DNA from: an uncultured Thermomicrobiaceae bacterium
GTDB taxonomy: Bacteria > Chloroflexota > Chloroflexia > Thermomicrobiales > Thermomicrobiaceae
NCBI GenBank assembly: GCA_938082375.1
Contig: CALKCJ010000007.1
Span: 62,001 to 126,000 of the forward strand
Length of the DNA: 64,000 bases
Direction: 5' to 3'
The notes beneath the pieces are model-generated. The model saw only the letters and a list, made by a program, of their open reading frames with translations, did not search any database and was not told where the DNA came from. Positions 42,549-48,751 of the stretch are shown here, piece by piece (the first letter of the stretch is position 1; each line of letters begins with the position of its first letter). Position numbers and translations under genes: made by a program.

Positions 42549-42689
42549 CCGCACGCGGTTCGAAAGGGTCAGCGCGAAGAGCCAGCCAAGCTGCATGGCC
42601 TGATGGTCTCTTGCACCCCCTGTACGACCGGTGTAGCTCGTCGCCGCTGGAAGCGGCCGCTCCAGCCGGTGCCCCCTCTCGCTGGTGCG

Positions 42690-44455
42690 AGGTCCACGCT
42701 CCCAGCTCACCATCGAGGAGGATCGCCGAGCCTGACTCCAGCTCCCCGGCGAGCAAGGCCCGGGCAATCGGGTCCAGCACCTCGCGGTCGATGAGCGGCC
42801 GGAGCAGGCGCGCGCCGAGCTCCGGGTCGTACCCAGCGCGGGCGAGGGCGCTGCGGGCACTGGGGACAGGCGCACCCTGACTTCCCAGAGACTAAGCCGC
42901 CGCTGCACGCTCGAGCTGGAGCTCGACGACTCGCTCAATAGCCTCGAGGGAGAGCGGCGCGAACAGGACGATGTCGTCGAGGCGGTTAAGCAGCTCGGGA
43001 CGAAAGAGCCGGCGAGCGAAGGAGAGAAACACCTCGCCCCGCCCGGTCGCCGGCCCCGATCGCCTCCTGGGAACCGGCATTCAAGGCGAGCACGATCACC
43101 GTATTGTGGAAGTCGACAGTCCGGCAATACCCATCGGTGAGGCGTCCATCCTCCAGGAGCTGGAGCAGCAGGTTCAGCAGTTTTGGATGCGCCTTCTCGG
43201 CTTCGTCGAAGAGGACAAGGAACAAACCTAGCGCGCGGCGAGGATCGCCGAGGCCGGTGCGCGCCCGCCGGAGCGCTTTGGCGACGGCTCGGATCGCCGG
43301 TTCCTGGCCGACCACCCGCCCGGCCAGAGTCGCTTCGATCTCCAGCCAGCGGCGTCCGCCACCGGAGCCGGGCGAGAGCATGTCCAGCCCGCTGAGCGGC
43401 AACCCGGTGCGCAGCGCGACCGCCTCGAGCAGCCGGTTGCGCCCAACCTGCGTCTCGCCATCCAGGTGTGTGAGCGCTGCCGCGTGATCGAGCACCTGCA
43501 AGGCGATGCCAGGCAGGGCGTGTGTGCGCAGATAGCGCTGGGCCAGCCAGATGGCTAGGCGCGGAGCCTCCGGCGCGAATTCGACCTGATGGCGCGCTTG
43601 CAGCCGCGGCAGGTGGGCCCGTAACACGACCTCGCACGACGCCTCGTTCCAGGCCGGCATCTCAATGACCTGCACCAGCATGTCCCAGTTGGGGATGACT
43701 GATGCGAGGCGTGCTGCCTGCTCGGCGGTGAGTGGCAGCGCGATCCCGCCCGGGTGCAGGAGCGCGCGGAGGGCAAAGCTGCCGGAGGTTGCGTCGCCGT
43801 CGCTTTGCACCAGCAGCTCGGCCCCCTCGAGGATGACCACCAGACGGCCCCGCCCAGCGGCGATCTCCCGACCGAGCTGCTCTACACGCTGCTCCAGCTC
43901 GCCGCGGTAGCGAGCGCCGGAGACGAGGCGAGCCATATCGACCCAGAAGACCTGGTATACCAGGAGCTCAACCGGGGCATCGCGCTCCGCCACCGCTTGA
44001 GCCAGCGCCCGCAGGGCAGTGCGCTAGGCAGAGCCGGGAGGCCCGGCCAGCGCGACGTTTCCTCCAAACGTGCTGCGGAGCGCGCTCACCAGGCGCCTGC
44101 TCACCGCGCGCCGCTGGATCAGAGGCTCCGGCTGATCCAGCACCGCCTTGGTGAGGTCGTAGCCGTGGCGGCCGAGCTCATTCCAGCGCGCCCACCCGGA
44201 AGCATTCCCCCTGCACACCATGCACGGGCCTACAACGAGCCCGATCGCGACGAGGATCGGCCGCGTGCCGACTGGCGAGACCTTATCGAGCGCGAACAGG
44301 GCGGCATTCAAGCCGGCTGCCCAGGTGACACCAGCCACCAGCCCGACGCTTCGGCAGAGACTCGCTGCCACACCGCCGGCCCAGCCAGCAGCGACACGGG
44401 CCTGCCAGTCAGCGGCAGACTCGGAACCAGCCAGTGCGCGAGTGTTCGCTGCCAT
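42690..44455 (-). pseudogene. Clp/Hsp100-type AAA ATPase with N-terminal membrane segment, decayed
   Basis: Starting at ATG 44455 behind AGGAGGCGCGC, the protein has two hydrophobic stretches (GLVAGVTWAAGLNAALFAL and GTRPILVAIGLVVGPCMV), then a first AAA module. Its Walker A is broken by a TAG at 44024-44026 (GPPGSA-stop-RTALRAL). The second module keeps VLFDEAEKAHPKLLNLLLQL and DGRLTDGYCRTVDF, but about 75 residues, including its Walker A, have been deleted after RRALGLFL (~43225). A frameshift near 43060 leads to FRPELLNRLDDIVLFAPLS, and a TAG (42892-42894) interrupts before GYDPELGARLLRPLIDREVL. It cannot encode a working ATPase. Confidence 0.85.
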
Positions 44456-45164: not shown

Positions 45165-45193
45165 TTGACACAGGGGCACGGGCGTGCTAGTAT
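45165..45193 (+). promoter_or_regulatory. Promoter of the structured leader and GYD gene
   Basis: A perfect TTGACA (45165-45170) and TAGTAT (45188-45193) are 17 bases apart, the best -35 box in the window. Transcription would begin at about 45200, exactly where the long stem of the leader RNA starts. Confidence 0.75.
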
Positions 45194-45199
45194 AGTAGT

Positions 45200-45284
45200 G
45201 GATCCCGGCGGTTTGCGGGAGGGAAATCGAAAGCCGAAAGGCGAGTAGAAAGTACCAACCAAGGATCGCCGGGATCCGTTTTGC
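45200..45284 (+). ncRNA. Unassigned structured leader or small RNA closed by an 11-bp stem
   Basis: GGATCCCGGCG (45200-45210) pairs perfectly with CGCCGGGATCC (45267-45277), enclosing 56 purine-rich bases. The interior has a GCC-GAAA-GGC hairpin (45233-45242) and a possible GTA-GAAAG-TAC hairpin (45245-45255). GTTTTGCTTCT follows the stem, so the stem could also act as a terminator. It starts at the predicted transcription start and ends 40 bases before the GYD gene, so it is either a riboswitch-like leader or a free small RNA. It matches no riboswitch class I know. Confidence 0.6.
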
Positions 45285-45323
45285 TTCTGGCTCGCTTCAC
45301 CCCGTCTCAGAAAGGAGCTCGCG

Positions 45324-45671
45324 ATGCCTACCTATGCGCTACTGACGAGACTTTCCCCGGCCACATTGGGCGAGTGGGCCAAGTGGGCCGGGAAGGAGAC
45401 GGCCGCCGATCCAAAGCTCATCGCCGACCTCGGCGAGCAAGTGTCGCACGCACTCAAGCAACAGGTCCCGGAGGCCCGCTGGATCGCCAGCTACGCCGTC
45501 CTCGGCCCATATGACTACCTCGACATCTTCGAGGCGCCTGACAACGAGACGGCTGCCAAGGTGGCAGCGGTCGTCCGAACCCACGGAAACGCCACCACCG
45601 AGACCTGGCCACTCACTCCGTGGGATCGCTTCCGCGACTTGCTCCGCGGGATGGGCGCCCGGCGCACATAA
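45324..45671 (+). CDS. GYD-domain (DUF3303-like) small protein
   Basis: A 115-residue protein with a ferredoxin-like alpha/beta fold. The family signature is present as SYAVLGPYDYLDIFEAPDNETAAKVA (about residues 50-75) and ends TETWPLTPWDRF. GYD proteins are small, cytoplasmic and of unknown function, often dimeric like the Dabb/antibiotic-monooxygenase fold. ATG 45324 has AAAGGAGCTCGCG upstream. It is intact amid decayed genes and has its own strong promoter and structured leader, so it is under selection. Confidence 0.85.
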   Translation: MPTYALLTRLSPATLGEWAKWAGKETAADPKLIADLGEQVSHALKQQVPEARWIASYAVLGPYDYLDIFEAPDNETAAKVAAVVRTHGNATTETWPLTPWDRFRDLLRGMGARRT

Positions 45672-45677
45672 CGCCGC

Positions 45678-46934
45678 TTAGTCCCCGGGCTGGAGCGTGC
45701 CCGGTACTCTAGGCAGCGATTCGCCTTCTCGCTCGCCCGCGATGCGAGCCCCACGGAGGAGTGCGAAGAGCGCAAGGTCGTAGACGCTCTTGAGGAGACC
45801 GGCTGCGAGCAGCGGCAGACCAGACAGTGGGTCGCTCCAGAGGAGCCCCGCAGCCGCCGGTGCGACCGCCGACCCAGCCGTGCGCGCGGCAGCGGTCAAC
45901 CCGGCGGCTGCTGCCCGCTCGTCCGACTCGACCAACGAGAGCAAGAGCGTCTACCGCGGTTGGGCATCAAGTGCGGCCGTCAGATGCCCAGCGACGAAGA
46001 GCGCTGCTGCCAGCGGGAAGGTGGGCATAACCGGCACAAGTGCCAGCATCACGTTGGCTGGCAAATGCGTGAACACCATCGTGCGAACCGGGCTGAAGCG
46101 CTGGGTCAGGGGTGGTGCCATCAACAGCGAGCCTGCCATTAAGAACTGAGACAGCGAGAAAATCATCCCCAGAGTTGGTGTCGATACGCCGAACTTCACG
46201 ACAAACCAGTAAGCGACCGCACTCTGCACCGCTAAGCCCACGGCGAAGGCATCCGCGGCGAACAGCCCGGAGAGCGATAGGACGAGCCGACGCGAGTGGC
46301 GCAGCCCCAGCAGTGAGCGGCCGGCCACGGCGCGAGTAGCCGGTTCGATTGTGGCCGGTAGTCGGCTCACGAGACCAAGCAACAGCGCCCCAGTTACAGC
46401 AGCGCCAAAGAACACCGCTCGGGAAGCCTCCGCTCCGACGAGACCCAGGAGATGAGGGGCCGAGGTTGCCAGCGCGCCGACCCTGCTGCCGAGCATCGCC
46501 ACGAGCGTCTAAGCCGCGATAACGCTGGTGCGTTGCTCCGCCCTGGTGGCTTCCGCTAGAGCTGCCTGCTCCAGCGCGAGCGCTGGCCCCGTATCGTAGC
46601 CGGTCGGGCCGATCGTTCCCAGGATCGCCGCCGTGAGCAGCAAAGCCGGCAGACTGCTGAGGGCGAAGACGAGGCTCGCGAGCGCTAGTGACAGCGACGC
46701 CAGCAGGAGCAGCCGCCGCCGACCCAGCCGATCGGCCAGCAGGCCGAAGAGCGCGGAACTGGCAGCTCCGATGGCCAGCATCGCGGTAAAGACCCCGCCA
46801 GCAGCTATCGGCTCGAAGCCGAGCGCGCTCAGGTGCAGGCCGAGCACGACCGCGATCGCGCCGAGCGCGATATGCCTGAGCCCAGCCATCGCTAGCAGTA
46901 GCCAGGCCGCTTTCGGCCAGCCCCAGCCGAACAC
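45678..46934 (-). pseudogene. MFS transporter with two in-frame TAG stops
   Basis: One uninterrupted reading frame of about 418 codons starts at GTG 46934 behind GGAGGACAGG and would give a 12-helix major facilitator (LLADRLGRRRLLLLASLSLAL is the loop 2-3 motif). It is broken only by TAG at 46509-46511 (after RTSVIAA, an expected Tyr or Trp) and TAG at 45951-45953 (after DAQPR, an expected Gln). Both stops are followed by the same bases ACGCTC. No frameshift is needed, so the damage is recent or the gene is occasionally read through. The substrate is unknown. Confidence 0.82.
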
Positions 46935-47181
46935 AGCCCCCTGTCCTCCCCCTCACACCTGCCGCCCAGGTTTCCCTGTCAGTCGCTCATACCCCGAGAC
47001 ACTGGCGAGCCGGTGGCCAATCTCTCGGGTCGAGCACGATCGGACGAAGGCGACGTGCAAGCTGCGCGGATCGGCACAGATAGGCTTCCAGCCTAACGCT
47101 GCCCGCTGCTAAGGCTGATCCGCTTGCCCGCAGACGTCCCGAGGCGCACTTCCTTTCCGCCGTACGGTGGGCATCGCTTCA

Positions 47182-47568
47182 CTATCCCAACGACCCCAAC
47201 GGCGGTGCCGTCGCTCCGCGGCGTTGCCCCCACTTATGCGCCCGCGCCTGCACCATAGCCCGGATCACCAGCAGGAAGGCGATTGCCACGAGCTGGCCGC
47301 CAAGGATGATCCGGTTCACGTCCAACGCCGGCTGCCAAGTGACGGTGCCGCCCTTGATCATGTAGACGCCGGCTGGTTTTGCGCTCACACCGAAACCACC
47401 ACCCCAGCCGCGCTCCTGTGCTTCGCTCTCGCCGCTCCCACCCCCTGCACCACCGGAGATCTTGGCCACCGGGATAATCGTCACACCGTCCTTCTCGTAC
47501 GGATCGCCGAAAACGCGCTTCACGCTCATCACGTCCTGGGCCTGTGCCAGAAGATCGCGAATGTCCAT
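47182..47568 (-). CDS. GerW/YtfJ family protein
   Basis: A 128-residue protein. MDIRDLLAQAQDVMSVKRVFG and VTIIPVAKISGGAGGGSG are the YtfJ/GerW signature, followed by a glycine-rich stretch (RGWGGGFGVSAKPAGVYMI) and one C-terminal hydrophobic helix (IILGGQLVAIAFLLVI). In Bacillus GerW is needed for spore germination, but homologues are widespread in non-sporing bacteria. ATG 47568 is chosen for its GGGAGGGTAGTC ribosome site. It follows the PspC gene by about 50 bases on the same strand. Confidence 0.85.
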   Translation of the reverse strand: MDIRDLLAQAQDVMSVKRVFGDPYEKDGVTIIPVAKISGGAGGGSGESEAQERGWGGGFGVSAKPAGVYMIKGGTVTWQPALDVNRIILGGQLVAIAFLLVIRAMVQARAHKWGQRRGATAPPLGSLG

Positions 47569-47619
47569 GACTACCCTCCCTGTCGGCTCCTTGCTGCCCG
47601 AGCCCATCGGCTGGCCCAC

Positions 47620-47820
47620 CTATTCTTCCGGCTCCAGCGGGACGATGATCCACAGGAGCACGTACGGGACCACGCCGGGCAGCCCACCAGGAAGCAAGAG
47701 CAGAATCCAGATCAGGCGCACCAGCCAGACAGGCGCGCCGAAGCGCTCTGCCAGGCCGCCTGCGACGCCGCCGATAATCCGGTACCGTCGCGAACGGCAC
47801 AAGCAACGTCGTGTAGCCAT
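47620..47820 (-). CDS. PspC-domain membrane protein
   Basis: A 66-residue protein with the PspC signature IIGGVAGGLAERFGAPVWLVRLIW and two membrane helices (LVRLIWILLLLPGGLPGVVP and VVPYVLLWIIVPL). PspC proteins take part in membrane-stress responses. ATG 47820 has GGAG six bases upstream; a start at 47835 would add five residues. It ends PLEPEE. Confidence 0.87.
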   Translation of the reverse strand: MATRRCLCRSRRYRIIGGVAGGLAERFGAPVWLVRLIWILLLLPGGLPGVVPYVLLWIIVPLEPEE

Positions 47821-47836
47821 CGCCATCTCCGTCACT

Positions 47837-48751
47837 CTAGCACAAGCTGGCGACGCGGAGCAGCGGCGCGAGGTCTGCCAGGAGCGCGTCCAGCTCGCGT
47901 AGATCCAGCACGTCCAGCGGGTTGCCGGCGGCAGCGCGCACGTAGTTGCTGCGAATCACCCCACGACGCCGCAACACTTCCTTGTACATGGCGACGCCGT
48001 GCAGGGCTTCGTAGTTCAGCAGCGGTAGCAGCCGGGCGTGCAGGTTGCGGGCCGTGCGCTCGTCGCCTTGTTCCAGAGCGTGCCAGATCTGGACGTGCAC
48101 GTCGGCTGCCTGACAGGCTGGCATCGTGCCACAGGCACCGCGCCGGTACTCGTCCAAAAGGTAGCGCCCACCGATGCCACCCATCACGCCCTGAAGCCGC
48201 GGCCCAGCCCGCTCCAGCAAAGCGGAGATAGCCCGCCCAGGCGGGAGCGTCTCCTCTTTCACGTACCAGGCGTGGTCGATCTCGTCCACCAGCCGGGCGA
48301 GGAACTCCGGTTCCAGGCGCGTACCCAGCGGCGCGTCGTGGTTCTGGATGAAGATCGGGATCGTGACCGCCTCGCTGAGCGCCCGGTAGTACTCCCAAAT
48401 CACGGTCGCCGGAACCGGCCGGGCATAGGGTGGCATCGCCATCACCGCGCTCGCCCCGATCTCCTGCGCGTGCCGGGCCAGCTCGACCGCCGCCTGGGCG
48501 CTACCGGCCGTGACTCCGACCACCGTCGGGACACGCCCGGCGACCTCCTCGACCATAATCCGAGCGAAGCGGCGCCGCTCCTCGTCGGTGAGCGTCCAAA
48601 ACTCGGAGGCGTTGGCCGGGCCAACGACCCCGTGCACCCCCGCATCCAGACAGAACCGGATCTCCCGGCGTAGGCTCTCTTCATCGAATGCCCCACGCTC
48701 GTCGAACGGGGTGCAGAGGATCACGTACACGCCGCGCATCTGCTGCGCCAT
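47837..48751 (-). CDS. Dihydrodipicolinate synthase/N-acetylneuraminate lyase family aldolase
   Basis: A 304-residue TIM-barrel class I aldolase. The Schiff-base Lys is Lys165 in AWYVKEETLPPG, and GVVGPANASEFWTLTDEER (residues ~41-59) gives the pyruvate-binding region. The Tyr that completes the catalytic triad in DapA is replaced (IFIQNHDAP, Gln at about 136), so it is probably not the lysine-pathway enzyme but a dehydratase or aldolase for a sugar acid or another keto acid. It stands next to the LutB-LutA gene on the same strand. Confidence 0.85.
   Translation of the reverse strand: MAQQMRGVYVILCTPFDERGAFDEESLRREIRFCLDAGVHGVVGPANASEFWTLTDEERRRFARIMVEEVAGRVPTVVGVTAGSAQAAVELARHAQEIGASAVMAMPPYARPVPATVIWEYYRALSEAVTIPIFIQNHDAPLGTRLEPEFLARLVDEIDHAWYVKEETLPPGRAISALLERAGPRLQGVMGGIGGRYLLDEYRRGACGTMPACQAADVHVQIWHALEQGDERTARNLHARLLPLLNYEALHGVAMYKEVLRRRGVIRSNYVRAAAGNPLDVLDLRELDALLADLAPLLRVASLC

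Follow-up and report, generated by a model that had tools for sequence, protein, structure and literature searches.

Stand-alone small RNAs of bacteria that carry an integrated intrinsic terminator are close counterparts of the element described here. Like them, this element lies between genes, appears to have its own promoter, is ∼80–90 nt long, includes its terminator stem within the fold, and has been duplicated as a unit. Unlike them, it forms a rod without a free seed, its interior is conserved as non-canonical loops, and it corresponds to no Rfam family. Bacterial Y RNAs, the partners of Ro60/Rsr, are similarly small and have a long terminal closing stem, and some copies of the present RNA are located near RtcB-type RNA repair genes. 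However, a Y RNA identity was rejected: the RNA does not match any Rfam family, and none of the 21 family genomes carries a TROVE/Ro60 gene in a search for which the Deinobacterium chartae genome served as positive control. One internal loop of the element, GAAA/GAGUA, has the AGUA/GAA signature of the sarcin-ricin/loop-E (bulged-G) motif, which is a building block found in many unrelated RNAs rather than a family.

The same phylum has yielded another candidate structured RNA, Chloroflexi-1 (RF01698), which is listed for Chloroflexus aggregans only (PMC2864571). Its model is included in Rfam and produced no match to this RNA in Rfam scans. The T. roseum genome report counts two small RNA genes, one chromosomal and one megaplasmid-borne, and in the section concerned leaves them unnamed (PMC2615216). 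No description of the present RNA was found in the open literature searched.

Promoter and fold of the element in the window

The window, a stretch of 64,000 nt, comes from the genome of an uncultured Thermomicrobiaceae bacterium (G000), and the promoter, the RNA with its parts, and the GYD gene downstream are on its forward (+) strand. The original prediction described a near-perfect promoter followed by an 11-bp perfect pairing, 56 enclosed bases, and GTTTTG, and each of these is present in the sequence. The sigma-70-type promoter (45165–45193) consists of a –35 TTGACA (45165–45170), a 17-nt spacer, and a –10 TAGTAT (45188–45193) that is extended by a TGC directly before it. A promoter scan found no other promoter-like site between 44900 and 45700, where 0.2 sites would be expected from shuffled sequences. 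All seven Thermalbibacter copies of the RNA share an identical promoter type and promoter–RNA distance. The predicted transcript start is near 45200. Positions 45200–45210 (GGATCCCGGCG) are perfectly complementary to 45267–45277, and further pairing lengthens this closing stem to 15 bp (45200–45214 with 45263–45277). A terminator scan yielded a match ending at 45277, directly before the GTTTTG. As modeled from DNA and covariance-model searches and from covariation, the structured RNA covers 83 positions (45200–45282).

The minimum free energy fold of the element is a single rod closed by the 15-bp stem. Its folding energy is only moderately unusual, with a z-score of –2.2 and equally good values for seven of 200 shuffles. 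Because the z-score is no lower than this, thermodynamics alone would not convince; it is the comparative data that put the structure far beyond chance.

In the closing helix P1, the 5′ strand (45200–45214) covaries with its partner at alignment pairs 3–76, 4–75, and 9–70 and has G·U variants elsewhere. Fold, terminator scan, and covariation all identify the 3′ strand (45263–45277), which also serves as the putative terminator stem. Together with a T-rich tail (45278–45287) it makes up an intrinsic-terminator-like end, and a T- or pyrimidine-rich tail follows most copies of the RNA. Two short helices were assigned from the alignment: P2 (45217–45218 with 45259–45260; pairs 18–61 and 19–60) and P3 (45221–45222 with 45255–45256 in Thermalbibacter; the Thermomicrobium register is off by one). 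A first loop-E-like motif, recognized by a GAA strand (45223–45225) facing AGUA (45251–45254), is confined to Thermalbibacter and the genome G012. P4 (45227–45228 with 45248–45249) shows UA, CG, and GC exchanges at pairs 28–50 and 29–49. Beyond it lies the conserved internal loop, in which GAAA (45229–45232) faces GAGUA (45243–45247), and which we interpret as a sarcin-ricin/loop-E motif. This combination is found in 16 of the 19 aligned copies, and GAAA/GAUUA, GAGA/GAGUA, and GACA/GAGUA occur once each. The rod is capped by P5 (45233–45242), a GCC-GAAA-GGC hairpin with a GNRA tetraloop whose pair 34–43 is GC, CG, or GU. The terminal loop reads GAAA, GCAA, GCGA, GGAA, or GAGA and conforms to GNRA in every copy. 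Several GAAA-loop hairpins had been proposed for the element; this one holds, but the remaining GAAA strings are located in internal loops.

Homologs and covariation

Searches of relatives by DNA similarity and with covariance models R1 and R2 revealed 19 clear copies (E-values from 3e-25 to 7e-14) in 12 of the 21 sampled family genomes. Each of these genomes carries one or two copies, usually two, and the DNA search located a second copy in the window's own genome (G000:C40:17271–17353). The genera represented are Thermalbibacter, Thermomicrobium, and a Sphaerobacter-like group, and the very divergent copy in G017 folds alike. A pattern scan of named genomes returned 14 loci, exclusively from Thermalbibacter longus, Thermomicrobium species, a Sphaerobacter MAG, a Thermomicrobiaceae MAG, and the bins HRbin26, HRbin27, and HRbin28. 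No clear copy was detected outside the family among 158 genomes of the class and a 400-genome sample of the phylum, and viral contigs, plasmids, phages, and E. coli genomes yielded none. The RNA is also absent from four near-complete family genomes (G004, G006, G009, and G010). This narrow and patchy distribution indicates that the RNA is not essential to the family. Weak covariance-model matches in G023 and G024 look like chance, and a match in G007 was rejected as a copy. A candidate diverged copy in G005 (L057 1501–1583; G005:C3:891446–891528) has the same promoter at the same distance and a similar P1, and its interior is replaced.

The copies align nearly without gaps (alignment A2), and 93.7% of cells pair when the rod structure is imposed on the 19 sequences. 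Ten pairs have changed on both sides, against 4.7 in shuffles, and compensation is seen in 36 cells, against 14.5, although these counts ignore tree structure. The covariation score is 0.282, compared to 0.176 in shuffles; in 500 shuffles, neither this score nor the two counts was ever equaled. When partners are slid out of register as a control, covariation collapses. Some compensations are private to one lineage each, including 9–70 in the a copies of G000 and G003; 22–56, 23–55, 27–51, and 29–49 in G017; and 29–49 in copy b of G008. These private changes are thus independent. There are 57 G·U cells across the copies versus five A·C cells, which identifies the + strand as the strand that folds as RNA.

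The original prediction had proposed that stem and interior be checked for covariation across genomes, and the ten compensated pairs bear it out. Covariance-model scans against Rfam 15 gave chance-level matches and no family at its gathering cut-off. With 19 copies across the family, covariation, and no match to a known RNA family, the predicted structured RNA under selection is strongly supported. The comparative data indicate that the element is a real RNA of ∼80 nt, previously uncatalogued, that selection has retained within a single family of thermophilic bacteria. A reading as a peptide (the frame across the RNA ending in NRKPKGE-stop) was rejected. The frame is open in many copies, but its start is not kept, and changes in the terminal loop preserve GNRA yet alter the amino acids.

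Genomic context and the upstream box

A gene for a GYD-domain protein of 115 aa (45324–45671; Pfam GYD, E-value 8.6e-21) follows the RNA in the window as a lineage-specific neighbor. Promoter, RNA, and GYD gene had been described as pristine amid decayed genes, and all three are indeed intact. Decay is seen in an MFS transporter gene (45681–46925), which has in-frame stops, and in a broken ATPase gene (42676–44221), both of which are intact in the sister genome G003; it does not extend to the neighboring GYD gene. In addition, the counterpart of a 365-aa open reading frame of G003 is split across three frames at 47115–48186 of the window.

Elsewhere the surroundings of the RNA differ, and no one neighboring gene is common to all copies. 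The Thermomicrobium copies occupy two conserved intergenic sites: copy a is located 3′ of gltX, and copy b lies between an SDR gene and an opposite-strand 3-hydroxyisobutyrate-dehydrogenase-like gene. About 0.6 kb 3′ of copy a in G016, a fluoride riboswitch (RF01734, E-value 1.9e-10; L040 2143–2220) was observed near a cation/proton antiporter-like gene.

The Thermalbibacter copies all have a near-consensus promoter and no direct-repeat box. Most Thermomicrobium copies, and those of the Sphaerobacter-like group and G017, carry a direct repeat, TGTnrC-N5-TGTnAC, ∼50 bp 5′ of the predicted start. The pattern TGTNRC-N5-TGTNACG has 22 matches in four Thermomicrobium genomes, compared to ten for the reversed control pattern. 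Among the 22 are six RNA promoters, four sites upstream of COX2 (cytochrome oxidase subunit II), and three upstream of an HSP20-BON operon, which in Thermomicrobium is ∼4–5 kb from copy b of the RNA. Since this box is common to the RNA promoter, the cytochrome-oxidase locus, and the HSP20-BON operon, expression of the RNA in Thermomicrobium is probably under stress or redox control through it, and the genes that share it possibly form a small stress/redox regulon. This box, which the COX2 locus and the HSP20-BON operon share (L091, L092, L093, L096; L133, L135, L142), is an 11-bp direct repeat reminiscent of the sites of OmpR/PhoB-type response regulators. Another box match (L139; G016:C109:8843–8860) is upstream of a PspA-like coiled-coil gene and could be due to chance.

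Alternative explanations and proposed mode of action

The position of the RNA in the window raises the possibility that it is a cis-acting leader or attenuator that senses a ligand or protein, with the P1 terminator setting read-through into GYD. In each of the four Thermalbibacter genomes an intact GYD gene comes directly after copy a, the window's version of this gene is 90–96% identical to those of the other genomes, and no promoter-like site was found between RNA and gene in the window. In Thermalbibacter, the gene is possibly, even probably, transcribed by read-through from the RNA promoter. However, the copy b sequences of G000 and G003, whose RNAs are 92–97% identical to copy a, retain promoter, RNA, and terminator in front of a decayed GYD remnant that has 55–58% identity, is truncated, and has lost its start codon. 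Furthermore, no GYD gene is found downstream from the copies in Thermomicrobium, the Sphaerobacter-like group, or G017, and in G005 a GYD relative and the candidate RNA are on different contigs. A role as GYD leader therefore fails as a general explanation: the association is lineage-specific, with an intact GYD gene only behind Thermalbibacter copy a. A leader should also have one downstream gene family across its copies, and none was found. Because GYD is decayed or missing beside copies that have been kept, what selection maintains is the RNA with its flanking signals. A GYD leader is very unlikely on these grounds, and of the two options originally raised, a leader resembling a riboswitch and a stable small RNA, the stand-alone copies favor the latter.

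An RNA of this size, with its own promoter and an intrinsic terminator, would be typical of bacterial sRNAs, and the box that it shares with the COX2 and HSP20-BON loci points to a regulon whose mRNAs might be targets for antisense pairing in trans. The fold argues against this explanation, which we consider unlikely: both ends of the predicted transcript are paired in P1, unpaired runs are 6 nt or shorter outside the tail, and the unpaired positions belong to conserved loop-E and GNRA-like motifs. The RNA might instead serve the RtcB/archease RNA-ligase system, either as its substrate or as its regulator; archease–RtcB operons are reported from diverse bacteria and archaea (PMC3973293). The RNA is beside or near archease in three genera (G001, G012, and G017), with RtcB also there in G001 and G017, and archease is present in all nine near-complete genomes with the RNA and missing in three of five without it. 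This co-occurrence rests on few genomes and ignores relatedness, RNA and archease are far apart in most genomes, RtcB is near-universal in the family, and in T. longus archease retains a promoter-like sequence of its own 3′ of the RNA. The link is a weak lead, and we judge such a role highly unlikely. Finally, a long inverted repeat in two copies per genome could be a palindrome conserved as DNA or a mobile repeat without RNA function. This is scarcely credible given that the G·U pairs are strand-biased, compensatory changes occur inside the rod, the loop varies only within GNRA, and the duplicates are gene-sized and in conserved intergenic positions.

Comparison among the genomes establishes a conserved RNA structure, its transcribed strand, gene-sized duplication, and independence from GYD. 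The structure is conserved with compensatory changes and, as far as sequence can tell, has a promoter and terminator of its own, as expected for a stand-alone RNA. Thus, the element is very probably the gene of a stand-alone small non-coding RNA. Transcription would begin near 45200 from the strong promoter and stop at an intrinsic terminator formed by P1 and the U tract. The product would be a rod of ∼85 nt in which the 15-bp P1 is followed by short helices and non-canonical internal loops, namely the conserved GAAA/GAGUA loop-E-like motif and, in Thermalbibacter, a second such motif, with a GNRA tetraloop as cap. This RNA would act in trans, and its shape suggests that the loop-E/GNRA half is bound by a protein. 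We assign a probability of about 75% to the overall explanation of a stand-alone rod RNA that acts in trans, most likely through protein binding. Protein binding is favored since the rod has no unpaired stretch fit for an antisense seed, but as the specific mode of action it is a tentative proposal, and the RNA may instead bind a ligand or have a weak base-pairing role. It is rather doubtful that the RNA represents a new functional class, in which a lineage-specific, stress/redox-controlled regulator RNA binds protein and is possibly tied to RtcB/archease repair.

With these results, a phylum for which we found almost no small-RNA literature gains a well-supported family of structured RNAs that Rfam does not contain. 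The decay of GYD behind a persisting RNA copy provides an evolutionary record that separates the RNA from its neighbor. In Thermomicrobium, the box common to the RNA, the cytochrome-oxidase locus, and the HSP20-BON operon offers a concrete, testable candidate regulon.
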